Assembly (NCBI RefSeq): GCF_004363095.1
Contig: NZ_SNYO01000012.1
Coordinates: 1 to 64,000 of the forward strand
Source of the DNA: Actinomycetospora succinea
GTDB lineage: Bacteria > Actinomycetota > Actinomycetes > Mycobacteriales > Pseudonocardiaceae
Length of the DNA stretch: 64,000 nt
Reading direction: 5' to 3'
The position numbers and the translations under genes were made by a program. Positions 29,381-49,244 of the stretch are shown in pieces. The first letter of the stretch is position 1; the number at the start of each line of letters is the position of its first letter. Under the pieces are notes generated by a model, which had not been told where the DNA came from, did not search any database, and saw only the letters and a list, made by a program, of their open reading frames with translations.

Positions 29381-30157
29381 ATGCGCGTCCTCGTCACCGG
29401 AGCGGCCGGGCGGATCGGCGGCTACCTCCGGGCCCGCCTCCCCCGCCCCGACCGCACGCTGCGCCTGCTCGACATCACCACCCCGGACGCGGTCGGCGAG
29501 CACGAGGAGGCGATCACCGCGGACGTCACCGACCTCGACGCGATGGTCGCCGCGTGCGCGGACGTCGACGCCGTCGTCCACCTCGGCGGACAGAGCGGCG
29601 AGGCGCCGTGGGAGGAGATCCTCGCGACGAACATCCACGGCACCTACGTCGCGTTCGAGGCCGCCCGGCGGGCCGGCGTCGGCCGCGTGGTGTTCGCGAG
29701 CAGCAACCACGCCGCCGGCTTCCACCCCGCCACCGACCCCGTCCCCGACGACCTCCCGACCCGCCCGGACACCTACTACGGCGTCAGCAAGGTGACCGGC
29801 GAGGCGCTCGGCAGCCTGTACCACGACCGCTACGGCCTCGACGTGGTCTGCCTGCGCATCGGCACCTGCAGCGACACCCCGCCGAACGCCCGCGGGCTCG
29901 CGACCTGGCTCTCGCCCGACGACTGCGGCCGGCTCGTCGAGGCCTCGCTGACCTGTCGGGCACCGGGGTTCCGCGTCGTCTGGGGCGTCTCGGCGAACAC
30001 CCGCCGCCGGTGGTCGCTGGCCGGCGCGCACGAGATCGGCTACCGCCCGCAGGACGACGCGGAGGTCTTCGCCGCGCAGGTCGGCGACCGGACCGCCGAC
30101 ACCGACGGCTACGTCGGCGGCGAGTTCGCCGGCCCGTCGTTCGACACCCCCGCCTGA
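29381..30157 (+). CDS. NAD-dependent epimerase/dehydratase family (uronate-dehydrogenase-like)
   Basis: A 258-residue extended short-chain dehydrogenase. The cofactor loop GAAGRIGG is at residues 7-14; ADVTD and the catalytic YYGVSK (Tyr-x-x-x-Lys) follow near residue 135; SSNHAAG is at the substrate side. The length and SSNHA...G pattern resemble NAD-dependent uronate dehydrogenases, which oxidise galacturonate or glucuronate to aldarolactones. Other sugar-type substrates are possible. ATG 29381 is preceded by GAAGGAG. Its last 49 bp overlap the 3' end of the convergent chorismate mutase gene. Confidence 0.8.
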   Translation: MRVLVTGAAGRIGGYLRARLPRPDRTLRLLDITTPDAVGEHEEAITADVTDLDAMVAACADVDAVVHLGGQSGEAPWEEILATNIHGTYVAFEAARRAGVGRVVFASSNHAAGFHPATDPVPDDLPTRPDTYYGVSKVTGEALGSLYHDRYGLDVVCLRIGTCSDTPPNARGLATWLSPDDCGRLVEASLTCRAPGFRVVWGVSANTRRRWSLAGAHEIGYRPQDDAEVFAAQVGDRTADTDGYVGGEFAGPSFDTPA

Positions 30158-30441
30158 CCCGTCCCCCGAGCCACGATCGCCTCCTCGACGCGGATGGCCT
30201 CCGCCATGAGCAGGTCGGCCAGCCGGACCAGGAAGCCCTCGTCGAGGCCGTGCTCGCGGGCGCGGGCCGCGGCCTGGCGCTCCACCTCGGCGGCCCGGCC
30301 GGGCTGGAACACCGGTGTCCCCGCGCGCGCCTTCACCGCCCCGACCCGCTCGATGCAGCGCATCCGGTCCCGCACGAGGGCGTACAGCGCCTCGTCGATG
30401 CCGTCGAGCTCCGCGCGCAGCACCTCGAGCTCGTCGGACAT
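30109..30441 (-). CDS. chorismate mutase (AroQ type)
   Basis: A 110-residue all-helical AroQ-class chorismate mutase, converting chorismate to prephenate for Phe/Tyr synthesis. The first helix reads LEVLRAELDGIDEALYALVRDRMRCIERVGAVKAR, with the conserved Arg, Asp and Lys of the active site; the later AAEVERQAAARAREHGL and LADLLMAEAIRVEEAIV give the second and third helices. No fused domain, no signal peptide, so cytoplasmic. Its tail runs 49 bp into the convergent dehydrogenase gene. A second, different chorismate mutase is at 46249-46584. An isochorismate-pyruvate lyase role is possible, since such enzymes share this fold. Confidence 0.8.
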   Translation of the reverse strand: MSDELEVLRAELDGIDEALYALVRDRMRCIERVGAVKARAGTPVFQPGRAAEVERQAAARAREHGLDEGFLVRLADLLMAEAIRVEEAIVARGTGQAGVSNDGPANSPPT

Positions 30442-43418: not shown

Positions 43419-45977
43419 CTACAGCTTCGTCAGCGGGACGCCGCCGATGAGCATGAGGCGCACGGTGCCCGAGGAGCCGAAGTCGATGGTGGCGGTGGCC
43501 CGGGAGCCGACGCCGTCGACGGTGACGACCGTGCCGAGGCCGTACTTGTCGTGGGTGACGCGGTCGCCGACCTCGAGCGAGATGGTCGGCGCCTCCTTCC
43601 AGTCCGGGCGCATCGGCGACGGGCGCGAGGTGCGCCCCGACAGGTCGGTGCCGGGGCTCGCCCAGCGTCCGGAGCCGAACCGGGTTCGGCCCACCGGCGA
43701 GGACCGCTCGGAGCTGGGCTCGACACGCCGCCACTCCCACACGTCGCCGGGGACCTCGTCGAGGAACCGCGAGGGCGGGTTGGCCTGCGGCTGCCCGAAC
43801 GCCGAGCGCATCACCGCGCGCGAGAGGTAGAGCCGCTTCTGCGCCCGTGTGATGCCGACGTAGGCGAGCCGGCGCTCCTCGGAGAGCTCCGCCGGGTCGG
43901 CCAGGGCGCGGGAGTGCGGGAAGACGCCGTCCTCCCAGCCCGTCGCGAACACCACCGGGAACTCGAGGCCCTTCGCGGTGTGCAGCGTCATCAGGGTGAC
44001 GACGCCGTCGCCGCCGTCGGGGATCGAGTCGGCGTCGGCGACCAGCGAGACCCGCTCGAGGAACGCCTCCAGCGAGCCGGGCTCGGGGGTGCCGTCGGTG
44101 CCCGCGGCGGGCGTCTCGTCGTCACCCTCGAGGCCCTCGGCGTTGCGCGCGTCCTGGACGAACTCGCGGGCGACGCTGACGAGCTCCTGCAGGTTCTCGA
44201 GGCGGGACTGCTCCTGCGGGTCCTCCGAGCCCTCGAGCTCGGCGCGGTAGCCCGAGCGGTCGAGGATCGCGTCGAGCACCTCGTCGACCGGCGCAGCGCC
44301 TCGATCGGTCGAGCTCCGCTCCGCTTCGTCTCCCCCCACCAGCAGCCCCGCCAACCCGTCCATCATCTCGACGAAGTCGGCGATGTTGCGCTGCGAGCGC
44401 GTGGCCAGCCCGTGCACCTCGCCCGCGGCCGCGCGGCGCAGGGCGGCGGCGAAGGTGATGCGCTCGCGGTCGGCCGCGTCGGCGACCACCGACTCGGCGC
44501 GGTCGCCGATCCCGCGCTTGGGGACGTTGAGGATGCGCCGCAGCGAGACCGTGTCCTCGGGGTTGGACAGCACCTTGAGGTAGGCCATGGCGTCGCGGAC
44601 CTCGCGGCGCTCGTAGAACCGCACGCCGCCGACGATCTTGTACGGCAGCCCGAGGCGGATGAACACGTCCTCGAAGACGCGGGACTGACCGTTGGTGCGG
44701 TAGAAGACGGCGACCTCGCCGAAGCGCACCTCGCCGGCGTCGACGAGGCGGTCGATCTCGGCGGCGACGAAGGCGGCCTCGTCGTGCTCGTTGTCGGCGA
44801 CGTAGCCGACCACCAGCTCGCCGTCGCCCGCGTCGGTCCAGAGCCGCTTGTCGCGGCGCTCCGGGTTGCGGCTGATGACGGCGTTGGCCGCGGTGAGGAT
44901 GCGCTGGGTGGAGCGGTAGTTCTGCTCGAGCAGGATCGTGCGCGCCTCGGGGTAGTCGCGCTCGAACTCGATGATGTTGCGGATGGTCGCGCCGCGGAAG
45001 GCGTAGATCGACTGGTCGGCGTCGCCGACGACGCAGAGCTCCGCGGGCTTCACCGAGCCGTCAACGCTGCCCGCCGCCAGGGCCCGGACCAGCATGTACT
45101 GGGCGTGGTTGGTGTCCTGGTACTCGTCGACCAGGATGTGCCGGAAGCGGCGCCGGTAGTACTCCGCGACGTCCGGGAAGCGCGTCAGCAGGTCGACCGT
45201 GCGGCCGATGAGGTCGTCGAAGTCGAGCGAGTTCGACTGCTGCAGGCGCTGCTGGTAGACGGCGAAGACCTCGGCGGTGCGCTTCTCCGCGTCGGTGGTG
45301 GCGGCGTCGGCGGCCTCGATCGGGGAGACCAGCTCGTTCTTCCACGCCGAGATGCGCGCGAGCAGGCCGCGCGGCGAGTACTTCTTGGCGTCGAGGTCGA
45401 GCCCCCGGGCCACCGACGCGACCAGCCGGCGGGAGTCGTCCGCGTCGTAGATCGAGAACGTGGAGCTCAGCTCCAGGTGGCGGTACTCGCGGCGCAGGAT
45501 GCGCACGCACATGGAGTGGAACGTCGAAACCCACATCGCGTTGGCGCGCCGGCCCACCAGCGCGGCCACGCGCTCGCGCATCTCGGCGGCGGCCTTGTTG
45601 GTGAACGTGATGGCCATGACCTGGCCCGGCCCGACCCCCTGGTGGCGCATCTGCCAGGCGATCCGGTGGGTGAGCACCCGCGTCTTGCCCGACCCGGCGC
45701 CCGCGACGATCAGCAGCGGCGAGCCGGTGTGCATCACGGCCTCGCGCTGCGGCGGGTTCATGCCCTCGAGCAGGGGATCGTCGGCCGGGTCCGGCGTGTC
45801 GGACGAGCGGCGCAGCGCCGCGCCGCCGCCCGCGTCACCCCCGCCGGCGGCGGCCGCGGCGAGGCGCCGGGACAGGGCGGAGGCCGCCGAGCGCGCAGGG
45901 GGACCCGACCCGGCGTCCGGCCCGGCCTCGAGGGCGGCGTCGGACCCGGCGGGACGGGTGGCAGGACCGGTGCTCAT
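43419..45977 (-). CDS. pcrA: ATP-dependent DNA helicase PcrA/UvrD
   Basis: An 852-residue superfamily 1A helicase. N-terminal low-complexity Ala/Gly stretch (about 1-70), then NPPQREAVMHTGSPLLIVAGAGSGKTRVLTHRIAW (two pieces), the Walker A loop being GAGSGKT. Motif II LVDEYQDTNHAQY, motif III VVGDADQSIYAFRGA, motif IV ILLEQNYRS, motif V LMTLHTAKGLEFPVVF, motif VI EERRLAYVGITRAQKRLYL. The C-terminal 50 residues make a Tudor-like RNA-polymerase-binding domain (VGDRVTHDKYGLGTVVTVDG). Functions in nucleotide excision repair and transcription conflict resolution. Between motif IV and V it contains VGGDEAERSSTDR, encoded by the dispersed element at 44306-44335. Equivalent to Rv0949 by order. Confidence 0.95.
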   Translation of the reverse strand: MSTGPATRPAGSDAALEAGPDAGSGPPARSAASALSRRLAAAAAGGGDAGGGAALRRSSDTPDPADDPLLEGMNPPQREAVMHTGSPLLIVAGAGSGKTRVLTHRIAWQMRHQGVGPGQVMAITFTNKAAAEMRERVAALVGRRANAMWVSTFHSMCVRILRREYRHLELSSTFSIYDADDSRRLVASVARGLDLDAKKYSPRGLLARISAWKNELVSPIEAADAATTDAEKRTAEVFAVYQQRLQQSNSLDFDDLIGRTVDLLTRFPDVAEYYRRRFRHILVDEYQDTNHAQYMLVRALAAGSVDGSVKPAELCVVGDADQSIYAFRGATIRNIIEFERDYPEARTILLEQNYRSTQRILTAANAVISRNPERRDKRLWTDAGDGELVVGYVADNEHDEAAFVAAEIDRLVDAGEVRFGEVAVFYRTNGQSRVFEDVFIRLGLPYKIVGGVRFYERREVRDAMAYLKVLSNPEDTVSLRRILNVPKRGIGDRAESVVADAADRERITFAAALRRAAAGEVHGLATRSQRNIADFVEMMDGLAGLLVGGDEAERSSTDRGAAPVDEVLDAILDRSGYRAELEGSEDPQEQSRLENLQELVSVAREFVQDARNAEGLEGDDETPAAGTDGTPEPGSLEAFLERVSLVADADSIPDGGDGVVTLMTLHTAKGLEFPVVFATGWEDGVFPHSRALADPAELSEERRLAYVGITRAQKRLYLSRAVMRSAFGQPQANPPSRFLDEVPGDVWEWRRVEPSSERSSPVGRTRFGSGRWASPGTDLSGRTSRPSPMRPDWKEAPTISLEVGDRVTHDKYGLGTVVTVDGVGSRATATIDFGSSGTVRLMLIGGVPLTKL
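44306..44335 (-). repeat. short dispersed element inside pcrA
   Basis: Reverse complement of GGAGACGAAGCGGAGCGGAG-CTCGACCG. Encodes GDEAERSST in a region of PcrA (between domains, before DEVLDAILDRSGY) where length varies in the family. Matches the element at 2232-2260 in frame and sequence. Confidence 0.55.
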
Positions 45978-46056
45978 CGTCGGTCCACGCTACCGGGGCC
46001 CCCTGACAACGGACGGGCGGCGCAGCGGGCGGTTGGCGGCACGGGGGCGCGGTGGC

Positions 46057-46131
46057 ATGATGTTCGTCGTGCACGCGCAGACCGTTCGATTTTTCTACGG
46101 GTACCGGACCCCGGTGCCCGTGGACATCTGA
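46057..46131 (+). CDS. leader peptide of the chorismate mutase gene (24 aa)
   Basis: A short frame with two ATG codons at its start and TGA 46129-46131, ending 117 bp before the chorismate mutase. The middle reads VRFFYGYRTP, that is Phe-Phe-Tyr-Gly-Tyr: four aromatic codons among five. The gene it precedes makes prephenate, the precursor of Phe and Tyr, so these would be control codons for attenuation. The T-rich codons (TTTTTCTAC) stand out from the GC-rich surroundings. Stem-loops follow at 46157-46184 and 46191-46228. Translation has not been shown; the aromatic run upstream of exactly this gene makes chance unlikely. Confidence 0.72.
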   Translation: MMFVVHAQTVRFFYGYRTPVPVDI

Positions 46132-46156
46132 CGCGCCTGCCGCGCCCGACCCACGC

Positions 46157-46228
46157 CGCCCCGGAGTCCACGGACCCCGGGGCGTTCTCGTGTCCGGGGT
46201 TCCTCGTGGAGCCACCCAACCCCGGACA
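46157..46228 (+). promoter_or_regulatory. attenuator-like stem-loops upstream of chorismate mutase
   Basis: First stem: CGCCCCGGAGTC (46157-46168) with GACCCCGGGGCG (46173-46184), one mismatch, then TTCT, a plausible terminator. Second stem: TGTCCGGGGTT (46191-46201) with AACCCCGGACA (46218-46228), perfect. CCCCGGA (46159-46165) can instead pair with TCCGGGG (46193-46199), so the structures exclude one another as in amino-acid attenuators. The leader peptide ends 25 bp before the first stem. Confidence 0.65.
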
Positions 46229-46248
46229 CCCCCTGGAGGCCGATCCCC

Positions 46249-46584
46249 GTGAGTGCTGCGACCAGCGACTCCACCCCGACCACCGCCGACGAGGACGCCG
46301 ACCCCGATCGGGGCGCGGCGCTCTCCCCCGCGAGCGCCGAGGAGATCCCCGACCTGCGCGTGGAGATCGACAGCATCGACGCCGAGATCCTGCGGCTGAT
46401 CCAGCGCCGCACCGAGATCTCCCAGCGGATCGGGCTGGCGCGCATGGCGGCCGGCGGGCCGCGGATCGTCTACAACCGCGAGATGGCCGTGCTGGCCCGC
46501 TTCCGCGACCTCGGCGCCGAGGGTCGCGAGCTGGGCATGCTGCTCCTGCGCCTCGGGCGCGGCCGCCTCGGCGGCCGCAGCTGA
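46249..46584 (+). CDS. chorismate mutase (Rv0948c-type AroQ)
   Basis: A 111-residue AroQ-delta chorismate mutase, cytoplasmic. The helix 1 motif LRVEIDSIDAEILRLIQRRTEISQRIGLARM, then GGPRIVYNREMAVLARFRDLG, then the C-terminal MLLLRLGRGRLGGRS, match the M. tuberculosis enzyme, whose activity is low until bound by DAHP synthase; its LGRGRLG tail makes that contact. The first 33 residues are disordered and acidic. GTG 46249-46251 has GGAGG at 46235. A Phe/Tyr-rich leader peptide and alternative stem-loops upstream suggest transcription attenuation by aromatic amino acid supply. It is divergent from pcrA, as Rv0948c is from uvrD1. Confidence 0.92.
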   Translation: MSAATSDSTPTTADEDADPDRGAALSPASAEEIPDLRVEIDSIDAEILRLIQRRTEISQRIGLARMAAGGPRIVYNREMAVLARFRDLGAEGRELGMLLLRLGRGRLGGRS

Positions 46585-46671
46585 CGAGCCGGGGACCCTG
46601 AGGCGCGACCCCGAACAACACGGGGGTCGCGGCGAGCACCGACCACACGCGTGTGGTGGCACTCTGGTGTC

Positions 46672-47240: not shown

Positions 47241-49244
47241 ATGAACGAGCGTGAGGGGCGGCACGCGTGGTTCGACGACCCCGGCGAGGTCACGGGCGCT
47301 CTGCTCGTGCCGCCGACGGTCCCCCCGCCGGCCCTGCCCGCCGACGTCGACCCGGAGGGCGTCGAGACCGCGCAGACCCCCGGGGCCGACGACACCGGTG
47401 AGCACTGGGTCGAGCTCCTGCCGGCGCCCCGCCGGCCCGCCGACGACATCCCGGCGGCCGAGGCGCCGGAGCCGGAGCACGAGCCGGAGCACGAGCCGGA
47501 GCCGGTCGAGTCCCGCCACACCGACGGCATCCCGGTCACGGAGATCCTCGCCCGTCTGACCGGCCCGCAGCCCGTGGTCGAGGACAGCCCGGACGACGAG
47601 ACCCCCGAGCCCGACGAGGAGCCGGACCCCGACTCCGACCCCGACTCCGCCGCGCTCGCCAAGGCCCTCGCGTTCGCCGCGGCCCTGGACGCCGCCGAGG
47701 CCCGGGAGACGACGCGGAGCACCTCCGCCGGCCGTGCCCCGCGGCCGCCGCGCGCCGCCCCCGTGCGCCCGCAGCCCACGCCCGGACGCTCGGCGCGCCG
47801 GCGCACCAACCCGTTCCGGTTGGGCCGCGGGCGGTCGCTGGGCGCGAGCACGGGCGTGTTCCTGGTCGCGGGCACGATCGCGAGCGTCGCCGGCCAGCTG
47901 CCCGGCCTCCCGATCGAGGACGTGCCCTACCCCGGCGACCCCCGCGCGCTCCCGCCCGGCGTCGCCCTGGTGCCCGGCCTCCCCGGGACGTTCGGCGCGC
48001 TGCCCGGCACGACCGTCGGCGGCGTCCCGGTCCCGGGCGTCACCCTCAGCGCCTCGGTCAGCGACCTCGGCCTCGGCGCACCCGGCGGCAACGCCGTCGC
48101 CGGCGGCGGTCTCGCCGGGGTCCGGGGCCCGCTCGCCGCCCCCGCCGGCGCGCTCCCCGGCGCCGCGGCACCGGGTGCGGGTGCGCCCGGTGCCGCCGGC
48201 GGCGGCGCCCCGGGTGCCGGCCCCGTCGCGCCCGGTCCCGGCGGCACGCCCGGGAGCCCCGGCAGCCCGGGCGGCACCCCCGGGAGCCCCGGTGGCACCC
48301 CCGGCATCGTCCCCGCCGTCGTGGACGGCCTCGGGAACACCGTCACGAACGTCGGGGACGGTCTCGGGACCACCGTGACCGGCGTCGGCACCACCGTCAC
48401 CGGCGTGACCGGCGGGCTCGGGACCACGGTCCGCAACGTCGGCACCGGCCTCGGGACCACCGTGACCGGCGTCGGCACCACGGTGAACGGGCTGACCGGC
48501 GGCCTCGGGACGACGGTCGACGGGCTCGCCGGCGGGCTCGGGGCCATCGGCAACAACGACGCCCCCGCCGGGGACCCGGGCCTCGTCGGGCGCGTCGGCA
48601 CCCTCGTCGGCGACACCACCAGCGGCGTCGCGGGCGCCCTGCCCGGGCCGCTCGGCGTGCCGGTGGAGGCCCTGGGCACCACCGTGGACACCACGGTCGG
48701 CACGGTCCAGCACCAGGTCGTCGCGCCGCTCGCCACGACGACGTCGGGGCTGGTGCGCGACACCGGCCAGACCCTCGGGACCACGCTGCACGACACGACC
48801 CACGAGGTCGTCGCGCCCGCCACGGGGACCGTCACCGGCGCCGTGCGCGACACCGGAGAGACCACCGGGACCACCCTGCGCACCACCACCCGCGAGGTCG
48901 TCGAGCCCGCGACCGAGACGGTCACCGGCGCCGTGCGCGACACCGGCCGGACCGCCGGGGACGCCGTCGACGACGTCTCCGCCGTCGGCCGCACGACCTC
49001 GCGCGTCGTGGAGGACACGACCGACCGGGTCAGCGACACCGTGGACGACACCGTGGAGGACGTGTCCTCGACCGTCGACGACACGAGCGACGCGGTCGAG
49101 GACACGACCGACGAGGTCGGCGACACCGTGGACGACACGGTGGACTCCGTGTCGTCGACCGTGGACGACACGGGCGACGCGGTGGAGGACACCACGGACG
49201 CGCTCGGCGACACCGTCGGTGGCCTGCTCGGCGGCGACGACTGA
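47241..49244 (+). CDS. long repetitive membrane-anchored protein, unknown function
   Basis: A 667-residue protein, not a known family. Residues 1-190 are acidic, Pro-rich and apparently cytoplasmic (EPEHEPEHEPEPVE, DEEPDPDSDPDS), ending in an Arg cluster PGRSARRRTNPFRLGRGR. A short hydrophobic helix (GASTGVFLVAGTIASVAG) follows. The outside part has Gly-Pro collagen-like runs (GTPGSPGSPGGTPGSPGG), then units of about 16-20 residues around GLGTTVTGVGTTVTGVTGG, and then Thr/Val/Asp units such as DTVDDTVEDVSSTVDDT repeated to the end. The last 100 residues are strongly acidic. Likely exposed on the cell surface and extended. It precedes a Ser/Thr kinase gene by 103 bp; the many Thr residues could be targets, which is only a guess. 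Confidence 0.8.
   Translation: MNEREGRHAWFDDPGEVTGALLVPPTVPPPALPADVDPEGVETAQTPGADDTGEHWVELLPAPRRPADDIPAAEAPEPEHEPEHEPEPVESRHTDGIPVTEILARLTGPQPVVEDSPDDETPEPDEEPDPDSDPDSAALAKALAFAAALDAAEARETTRSTSAGRAPRPPRAAPVRPQPTPGRSARRRTNPFRLGRGRSLGASTGVFLVAGTIASVAGQLPGLPIEDVPYPGDPRALPPGVALVPGLPGTFGALPGTTVGGVPVPGVTLSASVSDLGLGAPGGNAVAGGGLAGVRGPLAAPAGALPGAAAPGAGAPGAAGGGAPGAGPVAPGPGGTPGSPGSPGGTPGSPGGTPGIVPAVVDGLGNTVTNVGDGLGTTVTGVGTTVTGVTGGLGTTVRNVGTGLGTTVTGVGTTVNGLTGGLGTTVDGLAGGLGAIGNNDAPAGDPGLVGRVGTLVGDTTSGVAGALPGPLGVPVEALGTTVDTTVGTVQHQVVAPLATTTSGLVRDTGQTLGTTLHDTTHEVVAPATGTVTGAVRDTGETTGTTLRTTTREVVEPATETVTGAVRDTGRTAGDAVDDVSAVGRTTSRVVEDTTDRVSDTVDDTVEDVSSTVDDTSDAVEDTTDEVGDTVDDTVDSVSSTVDDTGDAVEDTTDALGDTVGGLLGGDD

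Follow-up and report, generated by a model that had tools for sequence, protein, structure and literature searches.

The chorismate mutase gene at positions 46249-46584 of the window (the whole 64-kb stretch of Actinomycetospora DNA that was analysed) is divergent from a pcrA helicase gene on the reverse strand (43419-45977; TIGR01073, 947.5 bits against a cut-off of 911.2). Its product scores well above the cut-off of NF005894 (115.7 bits, cut-off 73) and matches the intracellular chorismate mutases in PDB entries 2qbv (Rv0948c) and 6ygt with a best E of 1.5e-26, which bears out the assignment of the gene to the Rv0948c-type, or AroQ-delta, chorismate mutases in the initial annotation. The gene and all leader features described below are on the forward strand, and a ribosome-binding site, GGAGG, is evident in the sequence at 46235-46239. 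At 47241-49244 lies the frame of a repeat-rich protein with many VGTTVTGV-like repeats, for which no match above any curated cut-off was found in Pfam or NCBIfam.

The DNA ahead of the gene had been described as carrying a 24-codon frame, read from an ATG at 46057 through 46131, that includes Phe-Phe-Tyr-Gly-Tyr. This frame is present, but its ATG is probably not the start codon: the ATGATG at 46057-46062 overlaps a -10-like hexamer, CATGAT (46056-46061), and relatives keep a GTG at 46069 instead. The -10-like assignment draws on hexamer spacing in relatives, and 17 nt before it stands a -35-like TTGGCG (46033-46038), a weak match read by eye; a strict consensus sigma-70 scan of 45900-46400 returned no site. 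The GTG follows the -10-like hexamer by 7 nt, which is the arrangement expected of a leaderless message. Among 38 gene-anchored leaders of the Pseudonocardiaceae, whose start was taken as the nearest in-frame one regardless of promoter, 34 show a [T/C]ANNNT hexamer at a distance of 6-7 nt upstream of that start, compared with 192 of 10,260 background positions (1.9%); the spacing claim uses these leaders only, since the starts of the leaders found with a covariance model had required the hexamer.

Taken together, the conserved GTG and the hexamer spacing in relatives indicate that the real leader peptide is probably one of 20 codons, VHAQTVRFFYGYRTPVPVDI, encoded with its stop codon at 46069-46131, and its core is conserved in 76 distinct family leaders. 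Transcription is predicted to start at or next to GTG 46069, with leaderless initiation of translation. This predicted start is upstream of 46131, whereas a start downstream of that position had been named initially as evidence against a leader. Conservation in the 76 leaders marks Phe8 (UUU), Phe9 (UUC) and Tyr10 (UAC), at 46090-46098, as the candidate control codons.

Predicted competing RNA structures and ribosome position

The RNA from 46069 to 46260 is predicted to be more stable than 200 of 200 dinucleotide shuffles (z -4.5), and the same holds for 46095-46196 (200 of 200, z -4.4). Folding, together with pair changes in relatives, places a protector hairpin, formed by segments 1 and 2, inside the ORF at 46095-46123. 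Also within the ORF is an antiterminator strand (46106-46123) composed of GGACCCCGG (46106-46114) and CGTGG (46119-46123), which, judging from core pairs, folding and relatives, can pair with CCGGAGTCC (46161-46169) and CCACG (46151-46155), the two parts of a partner strand at 46151-46169. CCGGAGTCC overlaps the 5' arm of a terminator hairpin, and a mutually exclusive pairing, as proposed initially, is predicted and conserved; its partners, however, are ORF positions 46106-46114 and downstream positions 46161-46169 rather than the two stem-loops that follow the frame. Those two stem-loops are themselves present, as the terminator (46158-46183) and a further hairpin (46190-46229), and are followed by the chorismate mutase gene.

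The terminator (46158-46192) has arms at 46158-46164 and 46177-46183, inner pairs and a U-enriched tail, GUUCUCGUG, and is assigned from folding and from the tail in the 76 leaders. A terminator hairpin with such a tail is found in 76 of 76 family leaders, well upstream of the ribosome-binding site, and the 8 nt after its 3' arm contain on average 3.75 U, compared with 12.4% T before the terminator. In the window itself the U tract is short, and no terminator was called in 45900-46400 by a strict scan. Judged on sequence, the stem and its U-enriched tail have the make-up of an intrinsic terminator placed before a gene, and we designate it a predicted terminator.

The third stem-loop (46190-46229), identified by folding, precedes the ribosome-binding site. 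In the 7 Actinomycetospora loci folded (of 23 listed), hairpins of varying sequence occupy this place, and no consistent pattern of Shine-Dalgarno sequestration by them was seen. The 5' arm of this stem-loop could also pair with the 3' arm of the terminator, a possible further alternative structure in Actinomycetospora. A scan of 45900-46650 found no Rfam family at gathering score, the matches below threshold look unrelated, and at that score the region thus matches neither a T-box nor another described Rfam riboswitch.

We propose that a ribosome would initiate at the 5' end of the RNA, at GTG 46069. When Phe-tRNA is plentiful, it would run on to the stop codon (46129-46131) and cover segment 2 of the ORF, whereupon the terminator at 46158-46183 would form and RNA polymerase would stop. 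When Phe-tRNA is scarce, the ribosome would wait at Phe8 (UUU 46090) and leave 46106-46123 free to pair with 46151-46169; the terminator would then lose its 5' arm and the gene would be transcribed. If translation were absent altogether, the in-ORF hairpin would hold segment 2 and the terminator would form.

This scheme was compared with folding around a simulated ribosome, in which RNA became available for pairing 15 nt downstream of the A-site codon's first base. With a stall at Phe8 and RNA made up to the terminator loop, the antiterminator forms, with a mean pairing of 0.885 at -30.0 kcal/mol. A ribosome placed on the stop codon gives the terminator a probability of 0.999, and without a ribosome the antiterminator and the terminator stand at 0.015 and 0.999. 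Once the full terminator has been transcribed during a Phe8 stall, its helix still reaches 0.559, which is near a draw; the antiterminator must therefore win by forming first, and timing matters. A stall at Phe9 gives an antiterminator pairing of 0.553 and a completed terminator at 0.342. A ribosome stalled at Tyr10 or Tyr12 allows antiterminator-type pairing of 0.454 or 0.867, respectively, as long as the 3' arm has yet to be transcribed, and the terminator wins when completed (0.996 and 0.998). Because a stall at Phe8 favours the antiterminator, and because Phe8 is invariant among family leaders and Tyr12 variable, we infer that the sensor reads mainly Phe, and Tyr to a lesser degree. In the window, the modelled choice between the mutually exclusive antiterminator and terminator thus appears to be set by the position of the ribosome.

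Synonymous recoding of the Pseudonocardiaceae leaders raised antiterminator pairing in the absence of a ribosome from 0.03 to 0.21 and lowered it only slightly in the stalled state, from 0.53 to 0.44. In these models it is as if codon choice guards the protector hairpin.

Conservation in the Pseudonocardiaceae

Conservation across relatives had been set beforehand as a test of the initial annotation, and the Pseudonocardiaceae leaders that were read keep the frame with its Phe codon, the hairpin within the ORF, the antiterminator strand and the terminator. A covariance model built from 37 leaders (R1) matches at E ≤ 0.01 in 294 of 297 genomes and in 46 of 46 genera; in 4 of the 294 the best E is above 1e-10, and these may be weaker relatives or bare hairpins. 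The 76 distinct leaders come from at least 26 genera, with 37 found through the gene and 39 among the best R1 matches, and the latter favour conserved leaders and were assigned a start only where a promoter hexamer precedes it. The family reading leaves aside one locus with no core (L049) and eight duplicate records, the 37-row alignment leaves aside L005 (its piece is identical to that of L003), and L090, for which the script found no proper core, was removed along with identical rows before the set of 76 was formed. Eleven non-actinobacterial loci (L051-L061) lie outside the counts.

Position 8 is Phe in 76 of 76 distinct leaders, position 9 is Phe in 61 and position 10 is Tyr in 74, and position 12 is Tyr in only 36. 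Gly11, Arg13, Pro17 and Val18 are invariant (76 of 76). By its sequence, the leader ORF is a short frame enriched in codons for the amino acid product of the pathway.

The RNA pairings are kept as well. All nine core pairs of the antiterminator can form in 42 leaders, eight in 31, seven in 2 and six in 1, so that 73 of 76 have at least eight of nine. Columns 16 and 30 of the in-ORF hairpin pair (as A-U, U-G, U-A or C-G) in 65 of 76 leaders, compared with a maximum of 50 in 10,000 permutations. Peptide residues 12 and 16 change together with these columns, with Y-V, N-A, T-A, I-A, P-A and L-A among the pairs, and the RNA stem therefore seems to dictate these residues of the peptide. Likewise, leaders with GTGG in the ORF tend to have CCAC in the linker and those with GTGA to have TCAC, in a table of 52/3 versus 0/12 for the 67 unambiguous leaders (9 of the 76 are ambiguous and were excluded); the associated Fisher p of 7.6e-11 ignores relatedness. 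A longest-duplex test is clear in the family, with 34 of 76 leaders passing individually.

Covariation on the 37-row alignment is weak because the element hardly varies. In a tree-based test, with the tree taken from the gene, helix 2 has two supported independent pairs and columns 16-30 have one, which is not significant; the independent pair changes all go the expected way or are neutral. For ORF columns 29-41 and the linker, the duplex score of 5.18 does not beat that of permuted linkers (mean 5.04, maximum 5.25).

The excluded locus L049, on a contig from a Pseudonocardia MAG, has a gene match at 2501 and no recognisable leader core, and a promoter-like GTGGCACAAT stands before the gene match. 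The attenuator may have been lost here within the family, or the assembly may be at fault.

Leaders across the class and in the rest of the pathway

At E ≤ 0.001, R1 matched in 63 of 296 class genomes, many of the matches being weak. Among the 28 class-level R1 loci outside the Pseudonocardiaceae that were examined (L093-L120; many further weak matches fall outside this count), 27 are upstream of an Rv0948c-type chorismate mutase, and one weak match (L120) has no chorismate mutase. An extra R1 match, on contig 4 of the window's genome, is a hairpin without a leader.

The chorismate mutase gene itself (profile A2, E ≤ 1e-8) is found in 89 of 296 class genomes. We called aromatic leaders with a scan rule, written after examples had been seen, that demands a start after [T/C]ANNNT, a length of 8-40 codons and at least two F/Y in five. 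By this rule 73 of the 89 genomes with the gene have an aromatic leader, compared with 1 of 89 reverse strands and 11 of 890 shuffles, and 49 of 89 have at least three aromatics in five codons, compared with no reverse strand and no shuffle. Reading by hand adds seven leaders, which the scan missed because of a longer ORF or a differing hexamer, for a total of 80 of 89 genomes. None of the six second gene copies in the class survey has an aromatic leader (0/6).

Eight genomes lack a leader (L143, L151, L156, L157, L160, L165, L168 and L170), all of them members of family f2 in the same order; another locus (L190) is cut by a contig end, and the denominator of 89 keeps all genomes. In four of the eight (L151, L165, L168 and L170) the start of the chorismate mutase itself seems to lie beside the promoter, and L157 keeps a terminator-like hairpin and has a leader without aromatic codons.

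Representative leaders are RFFYGYRSAVPV from group g47, which we take to be Mycobacterium, and MLTHPTFLFTYGNRPTGCHGRAA from f20/g68, presumably Streptomyces; VTRSAFFFYGSGRVR, VLRSRDFFYALTGVRSGLGC and PFYGDRARSPLHR are further examples from the class. The dipeptide YG recurs in many distant leaders, and other lineages keep little besides the F/Y cluster (FFYALTGV, FYGDRARS). GC-rich hairpins follow the leader in these lineages too, and the loci read outside the Pseudonocardiaceae clearly have a putative leader peptide with a hairpin after it. Good support for the antiterminator is confined to the Pseudonocardiaceae; outside the family the longest-duplex test is near chance (0/16, 1/26, 2/11 and 4/25). 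An automatic switch test came out as expected in 30 of 38 Pseudonocardiaceae, 4 of 15 g47, 16 of 26 f20, 0 of 19 f19 and 7 of 10 other rows, where in at least some Pseudonocardiaceae and g47 rows it picked a hairpin other than the terminator.

Two g47 loci, L107 (G484) and L118 (G553), keep the peptide and appear to have the terminator deleted. Such natural variants should express the gene without attenuation. At L099, an in-frame start (MRPE...) lies downstream of the leader and upstream of the likely ATG; presumably, because of starts of this type, Rv0948c-type proteins could be annotated with N-termini that reach into the untranslated leader.

Codon usage at the sensor is also distinctive. 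Phe8 is UUU in 73 of 76 leaders (36 of 38 gene-anchored ones), and of the 54 leaders with an Arg before Phe8, 51 encode it by CGA. In three ORFs of the window, none of 35 Phe codons is UUU, and 3 of 157 CGN codons are CGA. Among the Phe codons of the aromatic cluster, UUU accounts for 19 of 20 in f19, 26 of 47 in f20/g68 and 17 of 30 in g47. These rare codons may slow decoding at the sensor, and a role in the RNA or in polymerase pausing is equally possible.

Chorismate mutase is the first step of the Phe/Tyr branch, and the window holds a second chorismate-mutase-like gene on the reverse strand at 30109-30441 (PF01817, 66.4 bits), which fits best with the chorismate-mutase-like subfamily TIGR01803 (59.4 bits, below the cut-off of 73.35). 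As noted initially, it has no leader: the 400 nt upstream contain no short aromatic ORF. It adjoins what reads like a divergent transporter gene. The class II DAHP synthase, prephenate dehydratase and prephenate dehydrogenase genes are each single in the window's genome, and about 600 nt upstream of each contain no promoter-linked aromatic leader; the aromatic frames that do lie upstream of the latter two have no promoter hexamer and are inside apparent upstream genes. Among the genes checked, then, attenuation would act at the branch-point enzyme alone.

Interpretation and comparison with known attenuators

We consider it highly probable that the element is a ribosome-mediated transcription attenuator that measures the charging of Phe-tRNA, and less so of Tyr-tRNA, and controls the Rv0948c-type chorismate mutase. 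The initial proposal of attenuation by charged aromatic tRNA gains support from the conservation of the leader, from orthologous leaders in 80 of 89 genomes and from simulated ribosome folding. The frame, its codons, the hairpins and the gene are conserved together and the folding logic is consistent with them; leaderless initiation, stalling, termination and a response to Phe and Tyr are what we infer from this.

Two other readings retain the leader peptide and assign it a different action. The stalled ribosome might control translation or Rho-dependent termination by altering access to the ribosome-binding site or the access of Rho. The short U tract in the window, which the strict terminator scan misses, and the third stem-loop just before the ribosome-binding site would suit such control, and mycobacterial cysteine attenuators are described as translational in the main text of PMC13236596. 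Nevertheless, a terminator hairpin with a U-enriched tail is kept in 76 of 76 family leaders at a distance from the ribosome-binding site, and GC-rich hairpins come after the leader in other lineages as well; we judge this reading improbable. We give still less credence to an arrest peptide, in which RFFYGYRTPVPV itself would stall the ribosome on a ligand (free Phe, Tyr or prephenate) rather than on tRNA charging. Such a peptide would account for the invariance of Gly11, Arg13, Pro17 and Val18, which goes beyond the aromatic codons, and for the recurrence of YG in distant leaders. However, residues 12 and 16 change together in the way that the RNA stem requires, and RNA pairing thereby accounts for much of the peptide conservation, and lineages outside the family preserve little of the peptide beyond its F/Y cluster.

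A reading without any leader peptide would hold that ordinary conserved intergenic hairpins, such as the terminator of another transcript, happen to lie next to a chance ORF. GC-rich hairpins are common here, and weak R1 matches do include L120, without chorismate mutase, and the contig 4 hairpin, without a leader. This reading is already contradicted, and we regard it as scarcely credible, given promoter-spaced aromatic leaders at 73 of 89 genes versus 1 of 89 reverse strands and 11 of 890 shuffles, their absence from all six second gene copies, and a Phe codon found without exception in 76 distinct leaders of at least 26 genera.

If transcription attenuation is the correct reading, soil bacteria such as this one and many of their relatives would very probably switch on the enzyme of the Phe/Tyr branch only when those amino acids are short, as the sequences and folding models suggest. 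More tentatively, and with rather less than even confidence, we suggest that this is an ancient Phe attenuator that predates the split of the sampled class families and provides the single RNA-level control of the Phe/Tyr branch, acting through the amount of AroQ-delta enzyme. It would read mainly the invariant, rare UUU, usually behind a rare CGA, with slow decoding sharpening the response, and its loss would have made natural constitutive variants of 7 genomes, which are the sampled members of three neighbouring genera, and of 1 of 17 g47 genomes.

On its own the Rv0948c-type enzyme has little activity; DAHP synthase stimulates it more than 100-fold, and feedback inhibition occurs only in the complex of the two (PMC4281200, in its accessible text), so the supply of this enzyme is a natural control point. 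According to the accessible text of a 2005 survey (PMC1262725), Phe and Tyr operons of Actinobacteria showed no conserved RNA structures in their upstream regions. A Phe attenuator of wide occurrence would close this gap and add gene-level feedback, and it would be a defined point at which to increase the supply of aromatic precursors in actinomycetes that make antibiotics. In the literature searched, most subscription papers being outside it, we found no actinobacterial chorismate mutase attenuator or gene-level control of this enzyme, and neither chorismate mutase nor Rv0948c is mentioned in the main text of PMC13236596. The mechanism follows a known plan and belongs to a classical class; this chorismate mutase element was found in neither Rfam nor the literature searched.

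An actinobacterial likeness, by description only, is the aromatic leader peptide AroR of C. glutamicum, a peptide with Phe-Tyr-Phe upstream of aroF whose expression rises under Phe limitation and is unaffected by Tyr availability (PMC11802643, on Neshat 2014, in its accessible text). AroR controls a DAHP synthase, whereas the leader described here precedes chorismate mutase. In the accessible part of a reannotation of S. lividans (PMC8079986), eight leaders are given (two Leu, two Trp, Ala, Ile, Met and Thr), none of them for Phe or Tyr; LeuL, TrpL and IlvL share the plan of a short leaderless ORF with hairpins after it, in some cases including terminators. For M. tuberculosis ilvB1, the main text of PMC13236596 describes uORF control codons and a terminator/antiterminator switch shown by reporters. 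That element is a branched-chain sensor, whereas the one proposed here would sense Phe.

In E. coli pheL-pheA, a leader peptide with Phe codons, competing hairpins and a terminator place a chorismate mutase under the control of charged Phe-tRNA, and the element proposed here would resemble it in each of these respects. Regulation of pheL by charged tRNA-Phe is covered in the accessible text of PMC11802643. E. coli belongs to another phylum and its pheA codes for a fused chorismate mutase-prephenate dehydratase, whereas the enzyme here is a stand-alone AroQ-delta protein. Moreover, unlike pheL, the actinobacterial leader is probably leaderless, and its predicted antiterminator strand lies wholly inside the leader ORF.
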